Under the pieces are notes generated by a model. The model worked only from the letters and a program-made list of their open reading frames with translations. It was not told the DNA's origin and did not search any database. The position numbers were made by a program, and so were the translations under genes. A stretch of DNA of 24,966 nucleotides from Gemmatimonadota bacterium (lineage in GTDB: Bacteria > Latescibacterota > UBA2968 > UBA8231), in assembly GCA_002712305.1 (NCBI GenBank), contig PATE01000126.1:1-24966 (forward strand), read 5' to 3'. Below are positions 1,133 through 24,416 of the stretch, one piece after another; the stretch's first letter is position 1; each line of letters starts with the position of its first letter.

Positions 1133-3070
1133 TCAAAGGGTCAGCAGGGCGACGGGACCGTCCCACGTGGAAAGCGGCGCTGTTCCATCGGCGACACTCC
1201 CACGAGACAGACCGTACCAACGTCCCGGGCCGGTCAGTTGGCCCAGCGGGTCTGGCCACACTCTCAGCTCACCGCCATGGCCTTCGAGACGCACACACTG
1301 TGTCGATTCGTCGAGGTCAAATTGCTGTGGCTTGATTCGTTCTAACAGAGCTGCCAGAACGCGTACCGTCTCATACGCGGGTCCGGGGTTGCAGAGTGGA
1401 TCGAGCAATCCCGCCGCGCCATCCATGGTGCGATCCAGATCGATGAGAGGTTCGATAAATGGCATCGCCCCCCATGCAGAGGCTTGTAGCAGCCCCCGAG
1501 TAATGTACGTGGGGGCCGTGGTCAGGTCATCGAGAACGATGCGCAATTGCAGTGGGCGGGCCCGAGTGGGCGCCTTCAACAACTGCTGCGTGAGTGGTCG
1601 GTGTGTCTCGGCGCTGATCACGATGGCCATGTCCGAGCTGCCCGCTGCGATCGACAGCAGTTGAGCCACTTCGTCCACCTTGTAGCCGATACGAGTGCGT
1701 GGGTGTTGTTTGTCAGCGATCAACTCACCGGGCACGATCGCACACAAGGCCAATGGTGGGTCCAACTGTTCGAGCACGGCCTGTTGACGCGCATCCGGGA
1801 TTGGAGAATCGGTCAATTGGACTTCAAGTCGATCCAGCCGCTGAGCATGTTCGGCAGCGGCTTGTGCCGCCGCGCCCAGTCCGACGGCCACCGCCTGTAT
1901 CTGCAGCCCTTCATCCCGCAACCATTGCAGCCTCTTCTGCTGTGCCGGATCATCCAGGTCTTGTGCGGGAACCCGCATCGCACCGATGCCGAGCTCTCGC
2001 AGCATGAGGTAGGGATAGTCGTTGCGAACGGGTTGGCGCACGAGCGACGGGTAGGCAACCGGAACCTGCGCACCGGTGACCAATGGCTGCACGAGGGTTT
2101 GGCCCAGATGACGCTGGCCCGAGGAGGTCGGCGTCAACACACGGCGATGGGTGGACCGTCCGTCGCCGGTGGGAATGAACTGAACGTCGAGTTGGCCTTC
2201 CTTCACGCGACACCAATAGAAGCCCAGCTTCGGCGTGTCGTCGCGGCCTCGCTCCGGGGCGGGCGGGGCGGCAAACAGGTAGCCGAATCCCGGTCGCGTA
2301 AAGCAGGAGGAGGCACAGATCCAGTGATGGGCGAACCCAGCAGCCGTCGACATCCGATCGTAAAAACGGAAATGCACGTGCGCCGCAAAAAGGTGACGCA
2401 CACGCGCCTGCTGCAACCACCGCAGCAACAGACCGCGATCAGGCTCAGCGACGGTGTCGTAGTGCCCCAGGTGGGGGTCGCTGCGATCTCGCAGGTAAAG
2501 CGGCAGATGGAGGAAGACAACGAGGCCTTGCGTCCCGGCTTCTGTGAGCTGTTCCTGCAACCAGCGCTGTTGTCGTTTGGCTGTTTCCAGCTTGGTGTTG
2601 AGAATCTGTGAATTCAACCCGACAAAACGAAGACCGCCGTGACACCACTCGGTAAAAGACAAACCGAACTGGGCTTCGTGATCCGTCAGGTCTTGCTCGC
2701 TGACCGCGTGGGTTGGCATCGTCGGATCGGGTTTATCACCCACGTCATGGTTGCCGGCGATGAAATGAGTTCGTGAGCGAAGACCCACGGCATCGATCTG
2801 TGCCAGCGCCTCAGTCTGGGCCCGGGAGAAATCTGGCCGACCAGGATACTCCTGTACCAAATCTCCCATGTGAACGATGAAGGTCGGATCCAGATCTGCA
2901 ATCGTGCGCCACACTGCCGCCGACCGCTCGCCCTGTACACCGCGTGAGGGAAACTCGGCCACGGCACGAGCATCGGCCCGGCCCGGGTCGGCGAAGTAAT
3001 GCGTATCGGCAACCACGACGAACTCGAAGTCCGCCGCGGGGAGCAGGCTTGTATCGCAGGAGATGGGCAT
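1133..3070 (-). CDS. Metallophosphoesterase with a large C-terminal domain
   Basis: A calcineurin-like, two-metal phosphoesterase of 645 residues. The metal-binding set is visible in order: DTH at residues 22-24, GD at 69-70, GNHD at 106-109, a histidine in FLHLPLY near 188, and AHVH at 230-233 in place of the usual GHxH. The phosphoesterase part ends around residue 310. The remaining ~330 residues have no motif I can name; they alternate beta-like and helical stretches (for example LGIGAMRVP and GLQIQAVAVG), which suggests a TIM-barrel-like domain followed by a beta-rich tail. No signal peptide is evident, so the protein is probably cytoplasmic. An in-frame TTG lies three codons upstream at 3079; the ATG at 3070 is preferred because AGG sits too close to the TTG. 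It is divergent from the nucleotidyltransferase gene. The substrate is unknown. Confidence 0.87.
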   Translation of the reverse strand: MPISCDTSLLPAADFEFVVVADTHYFADPGRADARAVAEFPSRGVQGERSAAVWRTIADLDPTFIVHMGDLVQEYPGRPDFSRAQTEALAQIDAVGLRSRTHFIAGNHDVGDKPDPTMPTHAVSEQDLTDHEAQFGLSFTEWCHGGLRFVGLNSQILNTKLETAKRQQRWLQEQLTEAGTQGLVVFLHLPLYLRDRSDPHLGHYDTVAEPDRGLLLRWLQQARVRHLFAAHVHFRFYDRMSTAAGFAHHWICASSCFTRPGFGYLFAAPPAPERGRDDTPKLGFYWCRVKEGQLDVQFIPTGDGRSTHRRVLTPTSSGQRHLGQTLVQPLVTGAQVPVAYPSLVRQPVRNDYPYLMLRELGIGAMRVPAQDLDDPAQQKRLQWLRDEGLQIQAVAVGLGAAAQAAAEHAQRLDRLEVQLTDSPIPDARQQAVLEQLDPPLALCAIVPGELIADKQHPRTRIGYKVDEVAQLLSIAAGSSDMAIVISAETHRPLTQQLLKAPTRARPLQLRIVLDDLTTAPTYITRGLLQASAWGAMPFIEPLIDLDRTMDGAAGLLDPLCNPGPAYETVRVLAALLERIKPQQFDLDESTQCVRLEGHGGELRVWPDPLGQLTGPGRWYGLSRGSVADGTAPLSTWDGPVALLTL

Positions 3071-3193
3071 GAGCGCCAACCTACATCACTGTCTCGTGAC
3101 GTCAATCACCCGTACATTCGCACCTTTTTATGGTGCCGTCGCGCCCGAAGCAAGGGTGGCAGCACGGCGGCGATCCAGATTGAAATTCGAAAC

Positions 3194-3198
3194 GGGAG
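3194..3198 (+). promoter_or_regulatory. Ribosome binding site deciding a GTG start
   Basis: GGGAG lies seven bases before the GTG at 3206. It places the nucleotidyltransferase start 69 codons inside a longer open frame whose upstream part overlaps the divergent gene and has no family similarity. Confidence 0.65.
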
Positions 3199-3205
3199 TA
3201 GACGG

Positions 3206-4015
3206 GTGGACACAGTGGTGGTGATGGCGCGCGGCCTGGGCAATCGCATGCGTCGAGAAGATGAGAGTGTCGGTCTGCGTTCCGACCAGAAGCACGCGGC
3301 CGAAAGCGGCATCAAAGCACTGGTCCCCTTTGATCGACCCTTTCTCGATTATGTTCTCACCGCCGTGGCCGATGCGGGGTATACGAAAGTGTGTCTCGTC
3401 ATCGGGCCTGAGCACGAGGAGATTCGCACCTACTACACCAACGTCGAGGCGGAGCGTTTGAGCTTCGACTTCGCTATCCAGCATGAACCCAAGGGCACAG
3501 CAGACGCCGTGCTGGCCGCCCAGGATGTCGTCGGCGACGAACCATTCCTGGTCATCAACTCCGACAATCACTACCCCTGCGAAGCCCTCCTGGCCCTGCG
3601 GCAGCTCGACGGTCCGGGTTTGGCCTGTTTCGACCGAGACGCGCTGATCGAGCTCAGCAACATCCCCGCCGAACGCATCGCCGGATTCGCGGTCGTCGAG
3701 GTGGACACCGATGGATTCATGTGTCGAGTCCACGAGAAACCGAGTCTCGAGCAGTTGCAGAGTATGCCCGAACCTGTGGGTGTGAGCATGAACTGCTGGC
3801 GCCTCGGAGGTGACCACATCTTCGATGCTTGTAAGGCCATCGACCCCTCGCCGCGAGGCGAGTTCGAATTGCCGGCAGCGGTGCAGTACTCCATCGACAC
3901 GCTCGGTGCCCAGGTGCGTGCCGTGCCGTTGCGCCTACCGGTGCTGGATCTCACGAGCCGAATCGATATCGACACCGTCGGCGAGCGGGTCAAAGATCTG
4001 ACTGTGCGGTTATGA
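3206..4015 (+). CDS. Sugar-phosphate nucleotidyltransferase
   Basis: A 269-residue GT-A-fold nucleotidyltransferase, expected to join a sugar 1-phosphate to an NTP and release pyrophosphate. Its N-terminus has a variant of the nucleotide-binding signature: MARGLGNRMR at residues 7-16, then a conserved lysine at 37 (GIKALVPF), where the classical form has G-x-G-x-R ... P-K. EPKGTADAV at 94-102 and the metal-binding INSDNHYP at 117-124 are standard family positions. The C-terminal left-handed helix seen in some relatives is absent; the protein ends with a simple alpha/beta segment. The GTG start is set by GGGAG. The stop overlaps the start of the kinase gene by four bases (ATGA), which implies translational coupling and a shared sugar substrate. 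The exact nucleotide and sugar cannot be deduced. Confidence 0.85.
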   Translation: MDTVVVMARGLGNRMRREDESVGLRSDQKHAAESGIKALVPFDRPFLDYVLTAVADAGYTKVCLVIGPEHEEIRTYYTNVEAERLSFDFAIQHEPKGTADAVLAAQDVVGDEPFLVINSDNHYPCEALLALRQLDGPGLACFDRDALIELSNIPAERIAGFAVVEVDTDGFMCRVHEKPSLEQLQSMPEPVGVSMNCWRLGGDHIFDACKAIDPSPRGEFELPAAVQYSIDTLGAQVRAVPLRLPVLDLTSRIDIDTVGERVKDLTVRL

Positions 4016-5367
4016 CTTCACCCCTCCTGCTCGACGATCAGCCGTTGCGACAGGATCTGCTAGACCATGGTCTCGGCAAGGATCATGTCGACGACAAGGC
4101 GAGGCGCTTTGCCGCAGCTTCACAGACCCTTGGGACGTCCACGCCAGCCACGCTGGCTTTCTTCGTTCCCGGCCGCATCGAGGTTCTCGGAAAACACACC
4201 GACTACTGCGGAGGGCACTCGCTGGTGACCGCCGTCGAGTGTGGTTTCTGTGTTGTGGCTCGGCCTCGCACCGACAACGTGATACGTGTTCACGCACTTG
4301 ACGAGGGCGACCATACCGAATTCCGCATGGGCCCAGAGCTCGATGTGCCCACAGGAACGTGGACGAACTATCCCATGACGGTCGCCCGTCGTCTCGCACG
4401 GAATTTCGACAGCTGTCGCACGGGCGCCGACATCGCTTTCAGCAGCGACCTGCCGTCGGCGGCAGGCATGAGCAGTTCATCGGCGCTTCTGATCGCCACG
4501 TATCTGATCCTGGCTGAGGTGAACCAACTGGAGTCAACGGATCGCTTCCGCGAGCATGTCGTCGACGATCTTACGCGAGCGGAATACCTGGGCACGCACG
4601 AAAACGGTCAGAGCTTCGGCCAACTGGCCGGGGATCGCGGTGTGGGAACCTTTGGTGGCAGCGAAGATCACACGGCCATCCTCTGCAGCCAACGCGGCTA
4701 CCTTGGGCTCTATCGTTATTGTCCGACCCAGGCTGTCCAGCAGATTCGTCTACCGGAAGGCCTCGTCTTCGCCGTCGGCGCCAGCGGCGTTGTGGCCGAA
4801 AAAACCGGCGCCGCCCAGGAACTCTACAATCGTGCATCCCTGCGTGTGCAAGCCCTCGTCCACGCCTGGCAGCGTCAGCAGACGTCGTCGGCTGTCTACC
4901 TGGCTGACATCACAAGCGGTGGCGACCGGTCCATAGACCAAATGCGCGCAGCGATCGAAGGAGGCAGTGACGGATTTGATACACAGGAGTTGTCTGTCCG
5001 TCTGGATCACTTCCTCGCCGAAGAGAGGCTGCTGGAAGAGGCCACCGATGCCTTGGCGCGGGGGGATGTGGCGACCTTTGGTGAGCGTGTGGACCGGTCC
5101 CAGGAACTGACGGACCGACTGCTGGGCAATCAGGTTCCTGAGACACGTGATCTGGCGCGTCTGGCGCGAGAACAGGGCGCCCTGGCAGCGTCCGCCTTTG
5201 GGGCGGGCTTCGGTGGCAGCGTCTGGGCTTTGACCTCAGATCGCCAGGCCGAGGAGTTCACCGAACGCTGGCGACGAGCCTACGTGGATGCCTATCCGGT
5301 GCGAGGCCCGACGAGCCAGTTTTTCCTCACGGGATCCGGTCCGGCGGCGTTTCCACTGCATCGCTGA
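4012..5367 (+). CDS. Galactokinase-like GHMP sugar kinase
   Basis: A 451-residue GHMP-superfamily kinase, expected to phosphorylate a sugar, most likely at the anomeric carbon. Motif 1 is PGRIEVLGKHTDY at residues 53-65; galactokinases have GRxNLxGEHTDY, so the galactose-contacting glutamate is lysine here (K61). Motif 2, the phosphate loop, is PSAAGMSSSSAL at 148-159. GGSEDHT near 215-221 replaces the galactokinase G-x-MDQ block and supplies the likely catalytic aspartate (D219). Motif 3, GAGFGGSVWA, is at 397-406. The length is slightly above the ~390 of bacterial GalK because of an N-terminal extension of about 45 residues. It has no ribosome site of its own and overlaps the nucleotidyltransferase stop. 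True GalK is possible but the altered motif argues for a related sugar. Confidence 0.82.
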   Translation: MTSPLLLDDQPLRQDLLDHGLGKDHVDDKARRFAAASQTLGTSTPATLAFFVPGRIEVLGKHTDYCGGHSLVTAVECGFCVVARPRTDNVIRVHALDEGDHTEFRMGPELDVPTGTWTNYPMTVARRLARNFDSCRTGADIAFSSDLPSAAGMSSSSALLIATYLILAEVNQLESTDRFREHVVDDLTRAEYLGTHENGQSFGQLAGDRGVGTFGGSEDHTAILCSQRGYLGLYRYCPTQAVQQIRLPEGLVFAVGASGVVAEKTGAAQELYNRASLRVQALVHAWQRQQTSSAVYLADITSGGDRSIDQMRAAIEGGSDGFDTQELSVRLDHFLAEERLLEEATDALARGDVATFGERVDRSQELTDRLLGNQVPETRDLARLAREQGALAASAFGAGFGGSVWALTSDRQAEEFTERWRRAYVDAYPVRGPTSQFFLTGSGPAAFPLHR

Positions 5368-15602: not shown

Positions 15603-16658
15603 GTGGAGGGAGATGACGGATTGAGTGACGGGTTCGAATACAGCGCGCGAGAGGCAAGACGAGTCACCCGCAAGGAAACGGGGATCGTCATTCCTGTCTA
15701 TCTGCCGGCCGGCAATGAGCATGAACTCCAACTCGAGCTCTTGCTCGACAACGTCGAGTCCTGCCTCGGCGTCGTCGAGGACCCGAGCCAGGTCTGCCTG
15801 ACTGCAGATGGGCCTGACTGTGGTGGGCCCGAGGTTGAAGATTTGTCACGACGATTTGGCGTTACGGCGACCGTCGGTGACTGCAATCGTGGAAAGCTCA
15901 GCGCCTTGCGGTGCGGTGTGGAGCGGATGACAGAATCTCCCTTGTCATGGCTGGCCGTCATCGACGCCGACGGAGATCACTTCGCCAACGAACTGATCAA
16001 TCTCACGCGGGCAGCGCTGGCCGCACACGCTCGATTTGCCGCCGACCAGGTTCTCGTCATCGGACGTCGTGCCAGCCGACATCGTCCCATGGGTATGCTC
16101 CGCGGCGAGTTGGAGGAACTGGCGGATCGCATTCTGCTTGATGCCCTCAACTATGCCGCAGCCGTCTCGGGTAAGCCCCTGCCACTGCAAGGGACGACAA
16201 GTTTGGAAGAGTTTCCCGACTTCCACTCTGGCTTCAAACTCTTCAGTCGTTCGGCGGCGGAAGCCGTCTTTCTGAGGGAGCCAGATTTGTGCGATGTCTC
16301 CGAAGACGCCTATTTCCGCCATGGATGTGAGGCTGTGATGACGGTGGAAGCGGTCCTGGCCGGTGCTCAGTTGGTATCGGTTCAGCGGTCGACATTCAAC
16401 GAGCAGCCCGTGTCCACGTTTGGGCAGCTGCAGCGAGAACGACTCGTGGCGGACAAGATGATCTGGCCCTGCCGTCGATTGGGTGTTCCGCCCTGCTTCG
16501 TCGAACAGTGGTTGCGTAACCACGTCCCTCGGTTGCTGCTGACCACCCTCGCTCCGCAAGGAAAACAGGAACTGCTGACGATCTGCAATCTCATGGCTGA
16601 AGCGTACCAGCTCCCACCCTTCACGCAAGACCTGATGGACGGGCCCCTGTTCGTGTGA
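15603..16658 (+). CDS. GT-A-fold glycosyltransferase-like protein
   Basis: A 351-residue family-2-like glycosyltransferase. GIVIPVYLPAG at residues 27-37 is the first nucleotide-binding strand, NRGKLSALRCGV at 95-106 is the G-K-x-x-A segment, and DADGD at 121-125 is a good D-x-D metal and nucleotide-sugar site in LAVIDADGDHF. PDFHSGFKLFSR and EDAYFRHGCEAV match the acceptor and ED catalytic regions of the family. There is no membrane span. The start is either GTG at 15603 or TTG at 15621; GGAGGG is positioned 10 bases before the TTG and so favours 15621. It overlaps the broken sigma-54 activator gene by one base and faces the REC-AraC regulator across 165 bp. The acceptor is unknown. Confidence 0.78.
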   Translation: MEGDDGLSDGFEYSAREARRVTRKETGIVIPVYLPAGNEHELQLELLLDNVESCLGVVEDPSQVCLTADGPDCGGPEVEDLSRRFGVTATVGDCNRGKLSALRCGVERMTESPLSWLAVIDADGDHFANELINLTRAALAAHARFAADQVLVIGRRASRHRPMGMLRGELEELADRILLDALNYAAAVSGKPLPLQGTTSLEEFPDFHSGFKLFSRSAAEAVFLREPDLCDVSEDAYFRHGCEAVMTVEAVLAGAQLVSVQRSTFNEQPVSTFGQLQRERLVADKMIWPCRRLGVPPCFVEQWLRNHVPRLLLTTLAPQGKQELLTICNLMAEAYQLPPFTQDLMDGPLFV

Positions 16659-17139
16659 TGACGAAGAACGAGGACCAATACGGTATGATCGGGGATAGCG
16701 AGCGCATGAAGGCATTGCTGCGCCTGCTCGAACGAATCGCCAAGACACCTGCCACGATCATGCTTCAAGGGGAGAGTGGCACCGGAAAGGCGCTGCTGGC
16801 GGAGGCGATTCATCGCCAGCCCCTGGGCGGATGGGCCCTTCGTCACAGTGGCTTGAACAAGCATTCCGGCTTCTCTGATGGAGTCCGAAGTCTTCGGGCA
16901 CGAGGCCGGAGCATTCACAGATGCCAGGCAACGCAAACAAGGCTTGATCGAATTGGGCGCCGGCGGGACGGTACTGCTCGACGAAATCAGCCTGCTGCCG
17001 GTGGAGCTGCAGGCCAAACTACTCGGAGTCCTCGAAACCCGTCGGTTTCGCCGACTAGGTGACACCGACGAACACGAGGTCGACAAGAGATTCCTTGCTG
17101 CCACAAACGAGGATCTGATGGAGGTGGTCGAGGCGGGTC
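16658..17139 (+). pseudogene. Truncated, frameshifted sigma-54 activator (AAA+ domain) remnant
   Basis: Intact relatives are enhancer-binding ATPases that remodel sigma-54 RNA polymerase. The first frame gives MIGDSERMKALLRLLERIA and Walker A GESGTGK, then AEAIHRQP. A base gained in the C-run near 16818 shifts the reading; the next frame gives DGPFVTVA, then a TGA (16854-16856) exactly where the family has the cysteine of its N-C-x-A block, then TSIPASLMESEVFGHEAGAFTDA. The sigma-54-contacting GAFTGA loop is GAFTDA. Walker B is GGTVLLDEIS and the sensor I region reads FLAATNEDL. Similarity stops at EVVEAGR, right where an 18-bp repeat begins; the family would continue with F-R-x-D-L-Y-Y-R-L. 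The C-terminal lid and HTH are missing. It overlaps the glycosyltransferase stop at TGATG. Confidence 0.85.
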
Positions 17140-17290: not shown

Positions 17291-17842
17291 CTATGTGGTT
17301 CGGCGGTCGCCCATCGCTTGGAGGGCGTCCCGCATCACCGCCTGCATCAGGCCGCGCATATAACCCAGCGCAAAGGCTCGTCCCTTCAGTCCCGGTGGTT
17401 CGTCACTCACGACCCGCGGTGTGTGATCGGGTGTCATGACCCCATCGAAACCGCATTCGTGGTAGGCGGCCATCGCCTCGTACATGTCACATCCCCCTCG
17501 TCGTGGAATCCCTCGTCGAATGAGGGGAAGGACCCGCGCACATTGCGGAAGTGGACGTAGACGATCTTATCCTGGGAAGCGAAACGACGGATCGCATCGA
17601 CGGTTCGGTCTGCTCCCATCTCTGCCACGGTGCCCTGACAGAACTCGAGTCCATTGCTGGGACTGTCGATCTCTGAGCACGTCTGACCAGTAGCGTTCCG
17701 GAAAGTTCTCGATCCCGGCCAGCGTCAGTCCGAAGGACTCGATCCGCGCCATTCACAAACAGATGGGTCACACCCAACTGAACCGTTTACCGAAGATTGT
17801 CGTCGGTCAAGTGCTGCGGGGTCAATCCCAGTCCAGTTTCAT
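17291..17842 (-). pseudogene. uxuA: Mannonate dehydratase remnant with internal deletions
   Basis: The intact enzyme (~350-390 residues) dehydrates D-mannonate to 2-keto-3-deoxygluconate in glucuronate breakdown. Here only about 184 codons remain, in broken frames. From ATG at 17842: MKL, then a lost base, then GLGLTPQHLTDDNLR, a TAA where the family has F or Y, then TVQLGVTHLFVNGADR. A segment is missing before RIESFGLTLAGIENFPERYW. After SDVL a block of roughly 150 residues is missing, and the frame resumes EIDSPSNGLEFCQGTVAEMG and IVYVHFRNVRGSFPSFDE, with HDEGDV. One base is lost there; MYEAMAAYHECGFDGVMTPDH and GYMRGLMQAV finish the protein to its natural C-terminus. Metal-binding CQG, H-F-R-N-V and DH motifs survive. 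The two large deletions rule out simple sequencing error. Confidence 0.85.
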
Positions 17843-18328: not shown

Positions 18329-19528
18329 TCAGGCCCGACCGTAGTGGGAGGCCTCAGGCGCCGTGTACCCGACCTCAAGATGCGGCGTCTCCAGTCGCTT
18401 GCTGCCCTGGTGACGCGACTGCAGGCAGCTTTCGAGGATGCCATTGACGATCATCGTTCGCTGAGCCGGGAACGGGGCGACCCCCGTCTGGAACATCTCG
18501 TCGATCTTGGCCGCAAAGCAGGCTGAATAGGTGACATTCGGCGTGGGTGTCAGGAAGAACTGGCACGACACCGGATCCTCTTCCCCTTTGAGCTTGGCGG
18601 CAAAGTTGTAATCGCCGATGGCGCCATTGATCATCAACAGCGTCGCCCGCAGTCCATCACGGAACTCAATCAGGTAGGCGACGGGCTTTTCGACCAGACG
18701 TCGTAGTTCGCCCGAACCCAACAGGTCCTGCGTGCGCCCGTCTTCCTTGGACAGACCCTGAGGAGAGTCGGATCGAGACAACGCCGCTTCTACCAGTCGC
18801 GTAGACCAACGCCCCTCATCGGCGGCGCGCCAGACGTCATCCCCCTCCAACATCTGCACTGCGGCCACGCCTGTTTCGCTTCCCGAACGTCGCTCGATCA
18901 TACACTGCATCGCTTCCAGGGCGTGATAATCCATCGCGTCCGAGCCGCCCACGCCCAACATCATTGCTTCTTCGATCTGGCATCCATAGGGCAACTCGAG
19001 ATCGGGGAGTCGGTACGTCACCGGTAGTGACGACCCCGCCAACAGCGGGAAATCGAGGCGTGCAGCATCCTCAACCATTTCCTGAGCCTTGGCGAAACTG
19101 TACGACAGGTGTTTGTCATTGTAGATCGCCACGGATCGACCGTCGGCCTCAAAGACCTCGACGCACTCTTTGAACAACTCATACCGGGGATACAGGATCT
19201 GGCCCAGTTCGTTGCTTGGGTAATCGCCGTGTTCGCCAATCAGGAGCACACCATCGACGGCCAATTCGTCGCCACCGCAACGGAGGGCCTCAGCGACGGT
19301 GGGATAGACGTCGAAGCCAAACTCACGGGCGCGATCATCGCTTTGGTCACCCACCGGTCTCTGGTCGACGTACATCGATACGACCTTGGTGTTTGGCATA
19401 TTCCAGCGACCTTCATAGGGATATCCCACCATGAAGCGGTCGCAGAAGTGCTGCGCGTGGGACAGATAACGATAGACGGTGGCGACGACCGCCAGGCGTT
19501 TGGGGGCATCAGAGGATGGTTGTGGCAC
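18329..19528 (-). CDS. Uncharacterised Rossmann-like protein, paralogue A
   Basis: A 399-residue protein I cannot assign to a named family. It is clearly homologous along its whole length to the adjacent paralogue B. Shared blocks, in order: VATVYRYLSHAQHFCDRF, VVSMYVDQRP, VDGVLLIGEHGDY, LYPRYELFKE, NDKHLS, LAGSSLPVTYRLP, GCQIEEAM, YHALEAMQCMIERR and, near the C-terminus, GDYNFAAKL and RLETPHLE. The order of strand, helix and a charged loop (VDGVLLIGEHG, then NDKHLS at the place of an E-K-P block) recalls the Gfo/Idh/MocA layout, but the glycine-rich dinucleotide loop is missing. It has no signal peptide. GTG at 19528 is preceded by GGAG nine bases upstream. It lies 38 bp downstream of paralogue B on the same strand, probably in one transcript. 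Confidence 0.85.
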   Translation of the reverse strand: MPQPSSDAPKRLAVVATVYRYLSHAQHFCDRFMVGYPYEGRWNMPNTKVVSMYVDQRPVGDQSDDRAREFGFDVYPTVAEALRCGGDELAVDGVLLIGEHGDYPSNELGQILYPRYELFKECVEVFEADGRSVAIYNDKHLSYSFAKAQEMVEDAARLDFPLLAGSSLPVTYRLPDLELPYGCQIEEAMMLGVGGSDAMDYHALEAMQCMIERRSGSETGVAAVQMLEGDDVWRAADEGRWSTRLVEAALSRSDSPQGLSKEDGRTQDLLGSGELRRLVEKPVAYLIEFRDGLRATLLMINGAIGDYNFAAKLKGEEDPVSCQFFLTPTPNVTYSACFAAKIDEMFQTGVAPFPAQRTMIVNGILESCLQSRHQGSKRLETPHLEVGYTAPEASHYGRA

Positions 19529-19566
19529 GTGCTGGGTCTCCGTTCAGTCGGTGAAATGGCCTGCGC

Positions 19567-20766
19567 TCACGTGCGCCAGTATGTGGACTCGGTGGGTGCA
19601 TCATAGGTAACCTGCTCAAGATGCGGTGTCTCGATGCGTTTCTGGTCCTCGAACAGACTGTCTACGGCTGCAGCCGTGAGTCCCGTCGTCATGAGGGTTC
19701 GTTCAACGGGGTAGCTGGGCCTGCCGCTCAAGAACATCTGCTCCACATTGGCAACCTGTGGCGAAAAGAAGTTGGCCAGTGATGTGAAGGCTGGCGGCAT
19801 GGGTAGATACATCTGTGTGGACAGCAATTCGTCCCTGGCCAGCTTGGCGGCGAAATTAAAGTCCTGCACGACACCATTCATGAGGATCATGGTCGTGCGC
19901 AGCCCGTCGACATGCTCGTAGTGGTAGGCGATCGGCTCTTCCGACAGCTTCATCATGTCATCGATCGTGGGAAACGCATCATTGAATCCTGGGCGCGCCT
20001 GCTTCAGCGTATGACTGCGACACAGACACGCTTCGAAAAGTTCCCGCGACCACAGTCGTTCGTGATGGGCCTGCCAGAAGCGGTCACCTTTGTAGGTCTC
20101 CAGCCAGCGCACACCCGCTTCGCCTCCCCCCCGCCGTTCAACCATACATTGGGCGGTCTCCAACCCGTGGAAATCGTAGGAATCCACGCCGCCATAACAC
20201 ACGCACATCGCTTCTTCGATGTCCGACCCTGTCGGCATGTCCACAGACGGAGTTCGCCAGGTCACCGGAAGGGATGAGCCGGCCATGAAGGCGAAGTCCA
20301 GTTCCTGGGAGATGTCATACATCTCCCGGGCCCAATCCCAGTTCCACGACAGATGTTTGTCATTGAAGATGGGTGCCGTCTTGCCCGTGGTACGATAGAC
20401 GGACGTAATCTGCTTGAACATTTCGTAGCGGGGGTACTGGTGTTGACCCTTCTCGTTCCGATGGTATTTGCCGTGTTCGCCAACGAGCAGAACACCGTCC
20501 ACGGCCAGATCGTTGCCGCCCAACGTCAGTGCGTCGGCGATGGTCGGCACTACCTGCATCTGTGGAAATCGTGCGGCCCGTTCATCGGTAAGGTCTCCCT
20601 CAGGCCGTTGATCGACGTAGAGTGAGACGACATCCATAGGTGGGCGATGGTGCCGGCCATTCCAACCGTATCCCTCAAGGAATCGGTCGACGATGTGCTG
20701 CCCGTGGGAGTACTTGCGATACTCGGTCACAATGGCGGCAATACGAGGTCGAGATGATGGGCTCAT
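19567..20766 (-). CDS. Uncharacterised Rossmann-like protein, paralogue B
   Basis: A 399-residue protein, the same length as paralogue A and upstream of it in the same orientation. It shares IVTEYRKYSHGQHIVDRF, VVSLYVDQRP, VDGVLLVGEHGKY, QYPRYEMFKQ, NDKHLS, MAGSSLPVTWRTP, GSDIEEAM, YDFHGLETAQCMVERR, QDFNFAAKL and RIETPHLE. Conserved His, Glu, Asp and Asn residues in these blocks suggest a polar, possibly metal- or sugar-binding active site rather than a structural role. B differs by an extra hydrophobic segment around FTSLANFFSPQ. The start is ATG at 20766 with GGAGG only three bases away, closer than usual. A minus-strand promoter with TTGAGC and TATCTT lies upstream. The function is unknown; a link to sugar or sugar-alcohol dehydrogenases is inferred only from layout. 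Confidence 0.85.
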   Translation of the reverse strand: MSPSSRPRIAAIVTEYRKYSHGQHIVDRFLEGYGWNGRHHRPPMDVVSLYVDQRPEGDLTDERAARFPQMQVVPTIADALTLGGNDLAVDGVLLVGEHGKYHRNEKGQHQYPRYEMFKQITSVYRTTGKTAPIFNDKHLSWNWDWAREMYDISQELDFAFMAGSSLPVTWRTPSVDMPTGSDIEEAMCVCYGGVDSYDFHGLETAQCMVERRGGGEAGVRWLETYKGDRFWQAHHERLWSRELFEACLCRSHTLKQARPGFNDAFPTIDDMMKLSEEPIAYHYEHVDGLRTTMILMNGVVQDFNFAAKLARDELLSTQMYLPMPPAFTSLANFFSPQVANVEQMFLSGRPSYPVERTLMTTGLTAAAVDSLFEDQKRIETPHLEQVTYDAPTESTYWRT

Positions 20767-20923: not shown

Positions 20924-22003
20924 ATGATGTTGCCCACACCGACAAACTTCTACCATCTGTGGAGTTGCGTGGCCGGTCTTCTGCTGTGCACGGCCCCGCT
21001 CGTGGCGCAATGGCCAGGTGCCGACGTCCGCGGCGATTTCGACGGCAATGGCATCGTCGATATGAGCGATGTTCGCCAGCTGCGCGATGCCTTCGGATCC
21101 GATGACACTCTTTTCGATCTCAACGCCGATGGGGAGGTCGGATTCGGCGATTTCTTCGAGATGGCACAGTTGGTCGACCCCTCTAGGGTCATCGATCCGA
21201 CGGCCGTTGAGCCGGCTCCATTGCCCTACAGGATCATCGAAACCTCACAGAGTCTCTCCCTGCACTTCGAGCAGTATTCGGTCACCCTCCAGCACGGGCG
21301 TCCCTTCGGACTCACCTCACTGCGCATGACCGGCCAACCGGGCGACTTTGTCCACTCCGAGTTGCCTTTGGCGGATTGGGAATGGTTCTGGTTCGATGTT
21401 CGCACGGGTCGCCGAGACGTCAAACTGCTGCAACCCACCTGGATCGCACCCCGGGTCGAGACCCATCCTGGTCACGCAGAGGTGACCTATCGACGACGGA
21501 ATGTGCTGCTTGAGGGCATCGATCTGCGTGTGAGCTATCGGTTTTACGTGCAGCGCCCCGTCTTCCACGTGACCTACCAGATTGACAACGCCAGTAGGCA
21601 GACGATCTCCGAACCCTACGTCATGCTGGGGTTCCCTGGATTCCCGAACCAACCGATGATCACCGGTGTCAGCGATACCGAGCGACATCGCACCGCCCGA
21701 TGGGGGAATTTCGGTGACGAAGCCCTCAGCGACGGGCGCACCGACTACCTGCTGCTGCGACACGACGCGGCGCGACGACCCCAGGGCATGCGGGGTGGTC
21801 TTGAAATGCATACACAGCAGGGCCTCTACACATTGACGACGTATTACCTGGCCGATTCACAGGTGCGGCGTGCGTACACGGCGCACACCAACAAGCCTCT
21901 GTATTTGACGAGCCACCTCTACGTGACCCTCGCCGATCTGCCACCTCAGCGCAGCCATCAGTTGCGGATTCACTACATCATGGCCGGGCCGCCGACACAA
22001 TAG
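20924..22003 (+). CDS. Secreted protein with two EF-hand/dockerin-like loops
   Basis: A 359-residue exported protein. Residues 1-28 form a signal peptide (LWSCVAGLLLCTAPLVA, cleavage probably before QWP). Two calcium-binding loops follow: D38-F-D40-G-N42-G-I-V-D46-M-S-D49 and D65-L-N67-A-D69-G-E71-V-G-F-G-D76, arranged as in dockerin type I repeats or similar EF-hand pairs, here at the N-terminus rather than the C-terminus. The rest (residues 95-359) is beta-rich, with alternating hydrophobic strands, and many aromatic and His residues (DWEWFWFDVRTG, PGFPNQPM), suggesting a carbohydrate-active or beta-sandwich domain; I do not recognise it. The start is ATG at 20924. It is divergent from paralogue B. 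Dockerin-like loops imply anchoring or calcium-stabilised assembly outside the cell. Confidence 0.8.
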   Translation: MMLPTPTNFYHLWSCVAGLLLCTAPLVAQWPGADVRGDFDGNGIVDMSDVRQLRDAFGSDDTLFDLNADGEVGFGDFFEMAQLVDPSRVIDPTAVEPAPLPYRIIETSQSLSLHFEQYSVTLQHGRPFGLTSLRMTGQPGDFVHSELPLADWEWFWFDVRTGRRDVKLLQPTWIAPRVETHPGHAEVTYRRRNVLLEGIDLRVSYRFYVQRPVFHVTYQIDNASRQTISEPYVMLGFPGFPNQPMITGVSDTERHRTARWGNFGDEALSDGRTDYLLLRHDAARRPQGMRGGLEMHTQQGLYTLTTYYLADSQVRRAYTAHTNKPLYLTSHLYVTLADLPPQRSHQLRIHYIMAGPPTQ

Positions 22004-22034
22004 CCGGGCAGCAACCAGGGCAGAGCTGATCGCC

Positions 22035-22063
22035 TTGCCCGCACTGTTTGGCGTAGGTACCAT
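22035..22063 (+). promoter_or_regulatory. Weak candidate promoter of the transketolase gene
   Basis: TTGCCC (22035-22040) and TACCAT (22058-22063) are separated by 17 bases and lie about 95 bases before the transketolase start. Both hexamers are imperfect. Confidence 0.25.
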
Positions 22064-22157
22064 AACCGACCCCGCATGGGCGCCTGCGCCCACTCCGTGT
22101 CTGACCCCAGGCGGGCTCCGACGCGAGAAACAAGAAAGCCCCAAGGACGAAGCTAAA

Positions 22158-24416
22158 ATGATCAGCCTCCAAAGTGCCCTTTCGGCTCAGGCACGTCGCA
22201 ATCGCAAGCTGCTTTCCGAGGCGTCCTACCTTGGACCATCGGTCAGTTCCAAAGTCGTACCCCTGCGCATCGATGTGAAGGGCCCTGCCAGTGCCGACCA
22301 GCTGGACGCTGTGGTTGGCCTTGGCGCTGAGGCAGCCTCGACGGCGATCTCGTCCCTGGCATCCCTGGCCAAGATCGGCGAACTCGATCATCTCGGTGGC
22401 GGTCTCGAACTCATCGATCCACTGCTTCTGTCGATGGCAGTCGCCGATGGCGAGTCGGTGGACTACACCATCGAACATGCCCACACCAGCATCGGCTACT
22501 ACGCGGCGCTGGCCGCCTTCGGTTACGTCAAATCGAAAGATGTAGTCGAAGGTTTTCGGCGGGGTATCGACATTGCCGGACACGTCTCGTGGCTTCCTGG
22601 TGGAACCCAACTCAACGGCGGTCGTTTGGGTGTCATGATACCTGTCGCCGTGGGACAGGCCCTGGGACGGCGGGCCCGAAAAGGCGACGACGCGTGGGTG
22701 ATCACGCACTGTGGCGATGCAGGTTGGATTTCAGGACAAGCACTCAACGGCTTCAACGGCGCCAGCGCCCACGGTGCGCCGATCACCTTCGTGATGCACC
22801 GCAATGGCATTCAGTTGTCGGGTACGACGCGCAGTGTCCTCGACCGCGATCCTCGACCGGTGGCCGAATCTCTGGGTATTCGTGTTCTCGAAATTCCCAC
22901 GCTTCACGACATTCCGGCGCTGTATGAGGCCTATCGCGAGGCAGCACGTCTGGCGCGTGAGGGTACGCCCAATTTGATCTTCCCCACCGGATTTAAGTCG
23001 GTGGAAGGTCAGGTGATCGACTTGCAGTGGTTTGGAGAGCACTACGGCGTCTTGGCCGAAACCGAGGCAATGGCTGCGAAGAATGGGGTCTCCATGGGCA
23101 GACCCATCTGGGTGCCCGGGTCCCTGATGAGTTATCGCGACGTGGGTCCCATGCTGGAATGCCTCTTCCTCGTCAACGATCTACCCGGCGGAGAAGGCCA
23201 CCACGATGGCCACATGAAGGGTCGTGACGAGAAGGAAGTCCTCAGCGGATCCATGTTCCAGGTGACCGATGCGCAGAAGTCGACCATCTCAAATCTGCGC
23301 AAAGCAAAGCGCTCGGTGACTCGCAGGGCGCGACCGGCTCCGGGGGCGCCCAACCTGAAACTCAGCGGCACCCAGACGGGGGCCGCCAAACTGCCGGCTG
23401 CCGGAGACTCCGCCAGTCCAAGAGCCGGATCTGAGGCTGGATACGCTGCCGTGGCTGCCGCACACAGCGAAGACGTTTTCATCGTCAGCTGTGACCTGGA
23501 TGTCTCGACGAAACTGGCCAAAGCGTGCGGTCTCATCCCGGCCCAGAACCAGTTCGAGATGTCGATCGAAGAGCAAGCAGCGACGCTGGTCGCCGACGGA
23601 CTGGCCATGAGTTCTGATCGCCCGCAACTCAACGTCGTTTCCACCTTCGCCGCGTTTTTTGAGGGAATTGCGCGTGAGGGATTCGACATGTGGCGATACC
23701 AGAGGAATCTGACGGGCGCCAATGAGGGTTTGAATGTCGCTTTCCATTTGTCCCACGTCGGAGCCTGTACGGGTCGTGATCATTTCTCCGGTTGGGGCCT
23801 GGATTGGATCAATGTGGCTCTCACCTACCTGCCCTATCTGCACCGTTTCTATGCACCCGCCGATGCACGAGCCGCCTATCTGGCGGTTGTGGATCTGGCG
23901 GCTCACTATGGCGGTCACGTCATCGGCATTCCCCGCGACAATCTGCCCGTGCTCAGCAAGCAGGATGACTCCGGTCCCTTGTGGGAGGCTACCGACGCCT
24001 GGCAGCCGGTGACGACCTATCGAACCCACGAAGGGGCTGAACATGCGATTCTGGCAATGGGCGCTCCGGCCTTCCTCGCCGGTGAAGCCGCCGCGACGCT
24101 GACGAAAAAGGGGCGACCCACCGATGTGCTCATCATCAATGGTCTGCCTCTGTCGGACAAAGAGCTGGAAACTCTGCTGGCCCCCTACGCCAACGGTGTC
24201 GTCACGGTGGAGGACGGATTTATCGGCACCGCTGCCACGGGTGTGCGCGGTTTCGCCGGTCTCGTCGCCTCCAAGGCGGCCGATGCCGCGTTGCCCGTCT
24301 CACACGTGGGTATCACCGATCCCACGGTGGCACCGTCCAATGGACACATGGAAACGTGGGCTCACTTTGGCATCACGACACAGGCTCTGACCAAGGCGGT
24401 TCAGGACCTGGGTTGA
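22158..24416 (+). CDS. Atypical transketolase-like thiamine-diphosphate enzyme
   Basis: A 752-residue protein with the three-domain plan of transketolase, which moves two-carbon ketol units between sugar phosphates. The thiamine-diphosphate motif is GDAGWISGQALNGFNGA from 186, closing at N216. The pyrimidine domain has the activating glutamate in MSIEEQAA (E471 or E472) and LNVVSTFAAFFEG; the C-terminal domain has DVLIINGLPLSDKELE. Differences from the usual enzyme are clear. The N-terminal GHAS and GPLGQG segments are missing; in their place are EHAHTSIGYYAAL and GHVSWLPGGTQLNGG. There is a basic, Ala/Pro-rich linker at about 380-425 between the two catalytic domains. ATG at 22158 is preferred (AAGGA ten bases upstream) over a longer frame from 22035. 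A specialised paralogue, rather than the housekeeping enzyme, is possible. Confidence 0.85.
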   Translation: MISLQSALSAQARRNRKLLSEASYLGPSVSSKVVPLRIDVKGPASADQLDAVVGLGAEAASTAISSLASLAKIGELDHLGGGLELIDPLLLSMAVADGESVDYTIEHAHTSIGYYAALAAFGYVKSKDVVEGFRRGIDIAGHVSWLPGGTQLNGGRLGVMIPVAVGQALGRRARKGDDAWVITHCGDAGWISGQALNGFNGASAHGAPITFVMHRNGIQLSGTTRSVLDRDPRPVAESLGIRVLEIPTLHDIPALYEAYREAARLAREGTPNLIFPTGFKSVEGQVIDLQWFGEHYGVLAETEAMAAKNGVSMGRPIWVPGSLMSYRDVGPMLECLFLVNDLPGGEGHHDGHMKGRDEKEVLSGSMFQVTDAQKSTISNLRKAKRSVTRRARPAPGAPNLKLSGTQTGAAKLPAAGDSASPRAGSEAGYAAVAAAHSEDVFIVSCDLDVSTKLAKACGLIPAQNQFEMSIEEQAATLVADGLAMSSDRPQLNVVSTFAAFFEGIAREGFDMWRYQRNLTGANEGLNVAFHLSHVGACTGRDHFSGWGLDWINVALTYLPYLHRFYAPADARAAYLAVVDLAAHYGGHVIGIPRDNLPVLSKQDDSGPLWEATDAWQPVTTYRTHEGAEHAILAMGAPAFLAGEAAATLTKKGRPTDVLIINGLPLSDKELETLLAPYANGVVTVEDGFIGTAATGVRGFAGLVASKAADAALPVSHVGITDPTVAPSNGHMETWAHFGITTQALTKAVQDLG

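Follow-up and report, generated by a model that had tools for sequence, protein, structure and literature searches.

Two adjacent genes in the analysed DNA (the window, 24,966 nucleotides, equal to the full length of contig C126 in a genome of 4.77 Mb) encode the two subunit types, A and B, of an ancient, two-clade protein family, which is predicted to adopt the two-domain fold of the Gfo/Idh/MocA oxidoreductases. On balance, we favour the explanation that the A/B pair is an obligate, probably hetero-oligomeric oxidoreductase for sugars or sugar acids, in which both active sites are kept and the cofactor loop is remodelled. The family is widespread in several abundant uncultured phyla and carries no Pfam or NCBIfam name, and the annotation in the one annotated record found is 'hypothetical'. 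The residues for the chemistry of a very large dehydrogenase superfamily are kept and the hallmark cofactor loop is discarded, so that the family can reveal in what way a Rossmann enzyme holds, substitutes or dispenses with its nucleotide. An A/B pairing this strict would also be unusual for the fold.

Both genes lie on the minus strand and are transcribed in the order P0002, P0001. P0002 (19567..20766, type A) starts with ATG and P0001 (18329..19528, type B) with GTG. A gap of 38 nt (19529..19566, minus strand) separates them, and a GGAG-type ribosome site was found upstream of each gene, that of P0001 being a GGAG located in this gap 9 nt before the GTG. The preliminary description had reported adjacent paralogues of 399 residues each, and the coordinates and lengths are as described; all five conserved blocks that it quoted were found in both proteins. 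The two sequences share 45% identity and 62% similarity over 395 aligned columns (E 3e-121), a paralogy far beyond chance. Their identical length is coincidental, because the orthologues range from about 383 to 410 amino acids. Orthologues of the pair in the same genus show 91–92% protein identity and dozens more occur in other phyla, and therefore P0001 and P0002 are real genes and not mere open frames.

The preliminary description had proposed to look for co-occurrence of the two genes in other genomes. The GTDB species genomes were scanned with P0002 as the query, and 80 of the 141 relatives obtained were kept, giving 80 loci from six or more phyla (Poribacteria, Latescibacterota, Gemmatimonadota, Acidobacteriota, Chloroflexota and Armatimonadota). 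In 79 of the 80 loci, a B-type gene was located downstream of the A-type gene, with the order unchanged. These comprised 74 pairs with both genes whole, one fused pair, two running off the contig within B and two with a split B; in the remaining locus, the contig ends 0.8 kb after gene A. The gap between A and B in the 74 whole pairs had a median of 7.5 nt and was 100 nt or less in 60 of them, while seven carried an inserted stretch of 0.5–2.2 kb. From the short gaps here and in the other genomes, P0002 and P0001 are probably co-transcribed. Within the Latescibacterota, 38 of 64 genomes had a close family member.

Across phyla, orthologues of one type shared 65–79% identity, and identity between the two types was about 45%. 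In the phylogenetic tree, all P0002-type proteins fell into one clade (SH-aLRT 96) and all P0001-type proteins into another (99). A second tandem pair in the same genome, on contig C92, contributed one member branching just outside each clade, and pairs of this C92 type are tandem in at least six related genomes. These results indicate that the A/B split is older than the spread of the pair, and that the unit has multiplied as a pair.

In some Poribacteria, a conserved 208-aa protein is encoded directly after gene A (L046, 9154-9837; also in L055, L061, L064, L070 and L078), and in loci that also have B it separates the two genes; no Pfam family was found for it when the L046 copy was tested. 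Two other Poribacteria encode a protein of roughly 700 amino acids with a secreted-looking start between A and B (L040, 9222-11309; L058, 9207-11354). A distant relative of the family, with about 31% identity, was found on an Arthrobacter plasmid (pHiyo8-1), where it is annotated as 'conserved hypothetical protein'. The annotated frame (L150, 8422-10272) fuses transporter-like sequence to this relative, and is probably over-long or misassembled.

To describe the fold, a structural model of P0002 was predicted by AF2 from an alignment of 86 family members, and was obtained with a pLDDT of 95.1 and a pTM of 0.93. In a Foldseek search with this model, all 50 of the 50 matches listed had the Gfo/Idh/MocA fold or were close kin (best E 7.9e-12), including GenD2, inositol dehydrogenases, GFOR and Gal80. 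The best match by VIA-align gave a Z of 25.1 and an rmsd of 3.7 over 288 residues with about 12% identity. In the model, the two-domain fold clearly spans the whole protein, and P0001 is predicted to have the same fold, as judged from the second half of the natural fusion protein described below. Profile comparisons gave the same direction. The sole matches of the family profile in an hmmsearch against the PDB were Gfo/Idh/MocA-type chains (E 0.005), and in hhalign the N-terminal domain aligned to a set of 19 Gfo/Idh/MocA proteins encoded by this genome, with a probability of 88% and an E of 3e-6. The comparison of profiles of the C-terminal domain only failed, and the homology of that domain rests on the fold and on full-length alignments.

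On the other hand, searches of Pfam, NCBIfam and PDB with P0001 or P0002 as single sequences gave no meaningful score. None of the 86 members matched PF01408, PF02894 or PF22725 even at an E of 10, within HMMER's filters, and no Gfo/Idh/MocA-type family was matched among the NCBIfam models. Matches to DUF2849 and HTH_31 were rejected, as they were below the cut-off and covered 30–40 residues. The claim of an unrecognised family in the preliminary description thus stands for single-sequence searches of the three databases, but not for the fold, which is predicted to be of the Gfo/Idh/MocA kind. A literature search for the motif and for proteins of this fold that are heteromeric or lack the glycines returned nothing relevant in a collection with few of the subscription journals.

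Compared with the Gfo/Idh/MocA proteins (PF01408 with PF02894 or PF22725; for example GenD2, 6nor, and the myo-inositol dehydrogenases 4mie and 3nt2), the P0001/P0002 family shares the predicted full-length two-domain fold, with Z of about 24–25, and keeps the catalytic-type Lys and His and the acidic residue that ends strand 2. In contrast to them, it has no Pfam match, has the low identity given above, has T-x-Y-x-x-x-S-H in place of GxGxxG and DKH in place of EKP, and carries an inserted GEHG-Y-x-x-NE-x-x-Q-x-YPR segment. It also occurs as an obligate-looking A/B pair, while the Gfo/Idh/MocA structures that have been described are homo-oligomers (PMC5969746). We therefore place it as a sister family beside Gfo/Idh/MocA, and not as a member, because it lacks the Pfam match, the GxGxxG loop and a strict EKP. 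Its chemistry is probably of the same kind. The oxidoreductive glycosidases (sulfoquinovosidases 8qc5 and 8qc6; 8zn9) also have this fold and rank high among the structural matches, with Z of about 23–24, although the sequence relation to them is not specific.

The preliminary description had noticed a Rossmann-like layout without the glycine loop and an NDKHLS block at the position of EKP, and both observations were borne out. The two-domain AF2 model agrees with the former, and all three glycine positions of the loop (G9, G11 and G14) are occupied by other residues (V13, E15 and K18) in the hhalign and MAFFT alignments. At this position, T-x-Y-x-x-x-S-H is conserved throughout the family, as TEYRKYSH in P0002 (residues 14–21, 20704..20727, minus strand) and as TVYRYLSH in P0001 (residues 17–24, 19457..19480, minus strand). 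The EKP motif is replaced by DKH, in which Lys137 of P0002 (20356..20358, minus strand) is invariant in the 86 members and aligned to the Lys of EKP in three alignments (hmmsearch against the PDB, hhalign and MAFFT). The counterpart in P0001 is Lys139 (19112..19114, minus strand). His200 of P0002 (20167..20169, minus strand), also invariant, was aligned by MAFFT to the invariant catalytic His of the 19 Gfo/Idh/MocA proteins, and corresponds to His202 of P0001 (18923..18925, minus strand).

Gfo/Idh/MocA enzymes have a K-D-H catalytic triad (PMC5969746). The position of the triad Asp, four residues before the His, is Ser196 in P0002, and Asp195, five residues before the His, is Asp or Glu in nearly all members. 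D52, conserved to at least 92% in each group, was aligned by hhalign to the Asp that ends strand 2 and holds the ribose; the MAFFT alignment was off by one there. In P0002 numbering, the invariant or nearly invariant residues include H21, D52, E97, H98, Y101, P112-R113, D136-K137-H138, R171, H200, E203, Q206, E210, R212, E216 and W231. Both types retain this whole set, so neither A nor B is a plain dead partner. At the same time, 23 positions distinguish A from B, each fixed to at least 95% within its type, and V194S, Y197M and T172L among them lie beside the putative active site.

One Chloroflexi genome encodes A and B in one frame of 810 amino acids (L072, 8004-10433), with a linker of about 25 residues, rich in Ala and Pro, between them. 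For the AF2 prediction of this natural fusion, the alignment was made by joining adjacent A and B genes by in-frame read-through. The model had a pTM of 0.87 with a disordered linker, and both halves matched the same structure entries as the P0002 model. Because a random placement of two halves of equal size should result in a pTM of around 0.5, the fusion model packs A against B with confidence. This packing fits an A/B dimer, though AF2 may dock any homologous halves in the manner of the known Gfo/Idh dimers.

In the explanation that we favour, A and B would each consist of a Rossmann-type N-terminal domain and an alpha/beta substrate domain, and would assemble into a hetero-oligomer, probably via the same C-terminal beta-sheet faces by which other proteins of this fold dimerise. 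A sugar, polyol or sugar acid would be oxidised or reduced by the retained catalytic Lys and His with NAD(H) in a remodelled binding mode: the acidic residue that ends strand 2, which normally holds the NAD ribose, is kept, and the T-x-Y-x-x-x-S-H segment would take the place of the glycine-rich loop around the pyrophosphate in typical members. The two active sites would not be equivalent, given some 23 type-specific positions, several of which are near the putative active site. Several points speak against this explanation. With none of the three loop glycines retained, NAD binding could have been lost too, the triad Asp has no exact counterpart but the conserved Asp/Glu one residue further away, no third gene is constant beside the pair, the structures in PMC5969746 are homo-oligomers, and the pTM of the fusion may reflect a general docking of homologous halves. 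A bolder version, which we put forward tentatively, is that the family is an obligate hetero-oligomeric branch of the fold, present in many uncultured phyla and in 14 copies in one genome, which holds its cofactor by the T-x-Y-x-x-x-S-H loop and has two non-equivalent sites.

An ordinary recent tandem duplication retained by chance would give adjacent paralogues of equal length, as seen here, but is scarcely credible, since it is contradicted by the two separate, well-supported clades and by the higher identity of each type across phyla than between A and B within one genome. The two proteins may instead be separate homo-oligomeric oxidoreductases, whose substrates are consecutive or related compounds in one pathway and which share no more than a transcript. 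We regard this as possible but doubtful. The full putative catalytic set in both types and the type-specific positions suit such enzymes, and the single-gene paralogues must work without a close partner; however, the same-order adjacency in 79 of 80 loci and at least six phyla is not accompanied by a constant third gene, the pair is duplicated or retained as a pair, and the natural fusion, with the confident packing of its halves in the model, also argues for association. The preliminary description had offered two related enzymes or a heteromer, and from the strict co-occurrence and the fusion we infer that the heteromer is favoured over the separate enzymes.

A non-redox role is also conceivable, in which the pair binds, senses or serves as a scaffold and dinucleotide binding disappeared with the glycine loop. 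The replacement of the loop glycines by a conserved non-glycine segment across the family is consistent with this, and Gal80 of yeast (3bts), which is non-catalytic, has the same fold and is among the Foldseek matches. Unlike Gal80, however, the family retains the catalytic-type Lys and His, both invariant, with the ribose Asp nearly so, and its neighbours are catabolic genes, with no link to regulators seen. We therefore consider a non-redox pair unlikely, and return to the hetero-oligomeric oxidoreductase in considering its substrate.

Beyond the preliminary description, which concerned the single pair, the pair is ancient and widespread and its predicted fold is that of a known superfamily; moreover, the genome holds 14 family members, namely two tandem pairs and ten single paralogues. 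No third gene constant beside the main pair was found, so its own pathway is not indicated, and the PhyH and metallo-beta-lactamase genes upstream of the pair are confined mainly to Poribacteria. The neighbours of other copies point to sugar or sugar-acid substrates. The copy on C41 is flanked by a UxuA-like gene and a sugar isomerase gene, a copy on C9 is overlapped by a 7-bladed lactonase gene, and second pairs adjoin genes for a 2-hydroxyacid dehydrogenase and an HpcH/HpaI aldolase, an amidohydrolase and an isomerase, or PhyH and GH4. Of the roughly 16 UxuA-like genes in the genome, four lie 5 kb or less from a family member, where 0.44 would be expected (P about 0.001 in a single test without correction); the window's own decayed gene is counted among the four. 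Gfo/Idh/MocA genes were not clearly enriched near family members, since the genome has 107 matches to that family's NAD-binding domain, a large expansion for 4.77 Mb. A published study describes Latescibacteria as breaking down pectin, alginate and further polymers of algal cell walls (PMC4454575).

Several other features of the window were observed. Just downstream of the pair, at 17336-17682 on the minus strand, the C-terminal third of UxuA (mannonate dehydratase) is matched by two fragments that overlap and lie in different frames; they represent either a decayed sugar-acid gene or an assembly frameshift. Upstream of the pair and divergent from it, 20924-24416 (plus strand) encodes two proteins, one dockerin-like (359 aa) and one E1/transketolase-like (793 aa), both of which are syntenic in the same genus (L151), with one or both near the pair in L012, L015 and L017. 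For a 135-aa open reading frame at 16655-17062 (plus strand), the match to the sigma-54 activator domain is limited to positions 1–45, and the frame is a truncated regulator. At 2999-5367 (plus strand), genes for a nucleotidyltransferase and a GHMP (galactokinase-like) kinase overlap by 4 nt, which resembles the arrangement for sugar-nucleotide salvage.
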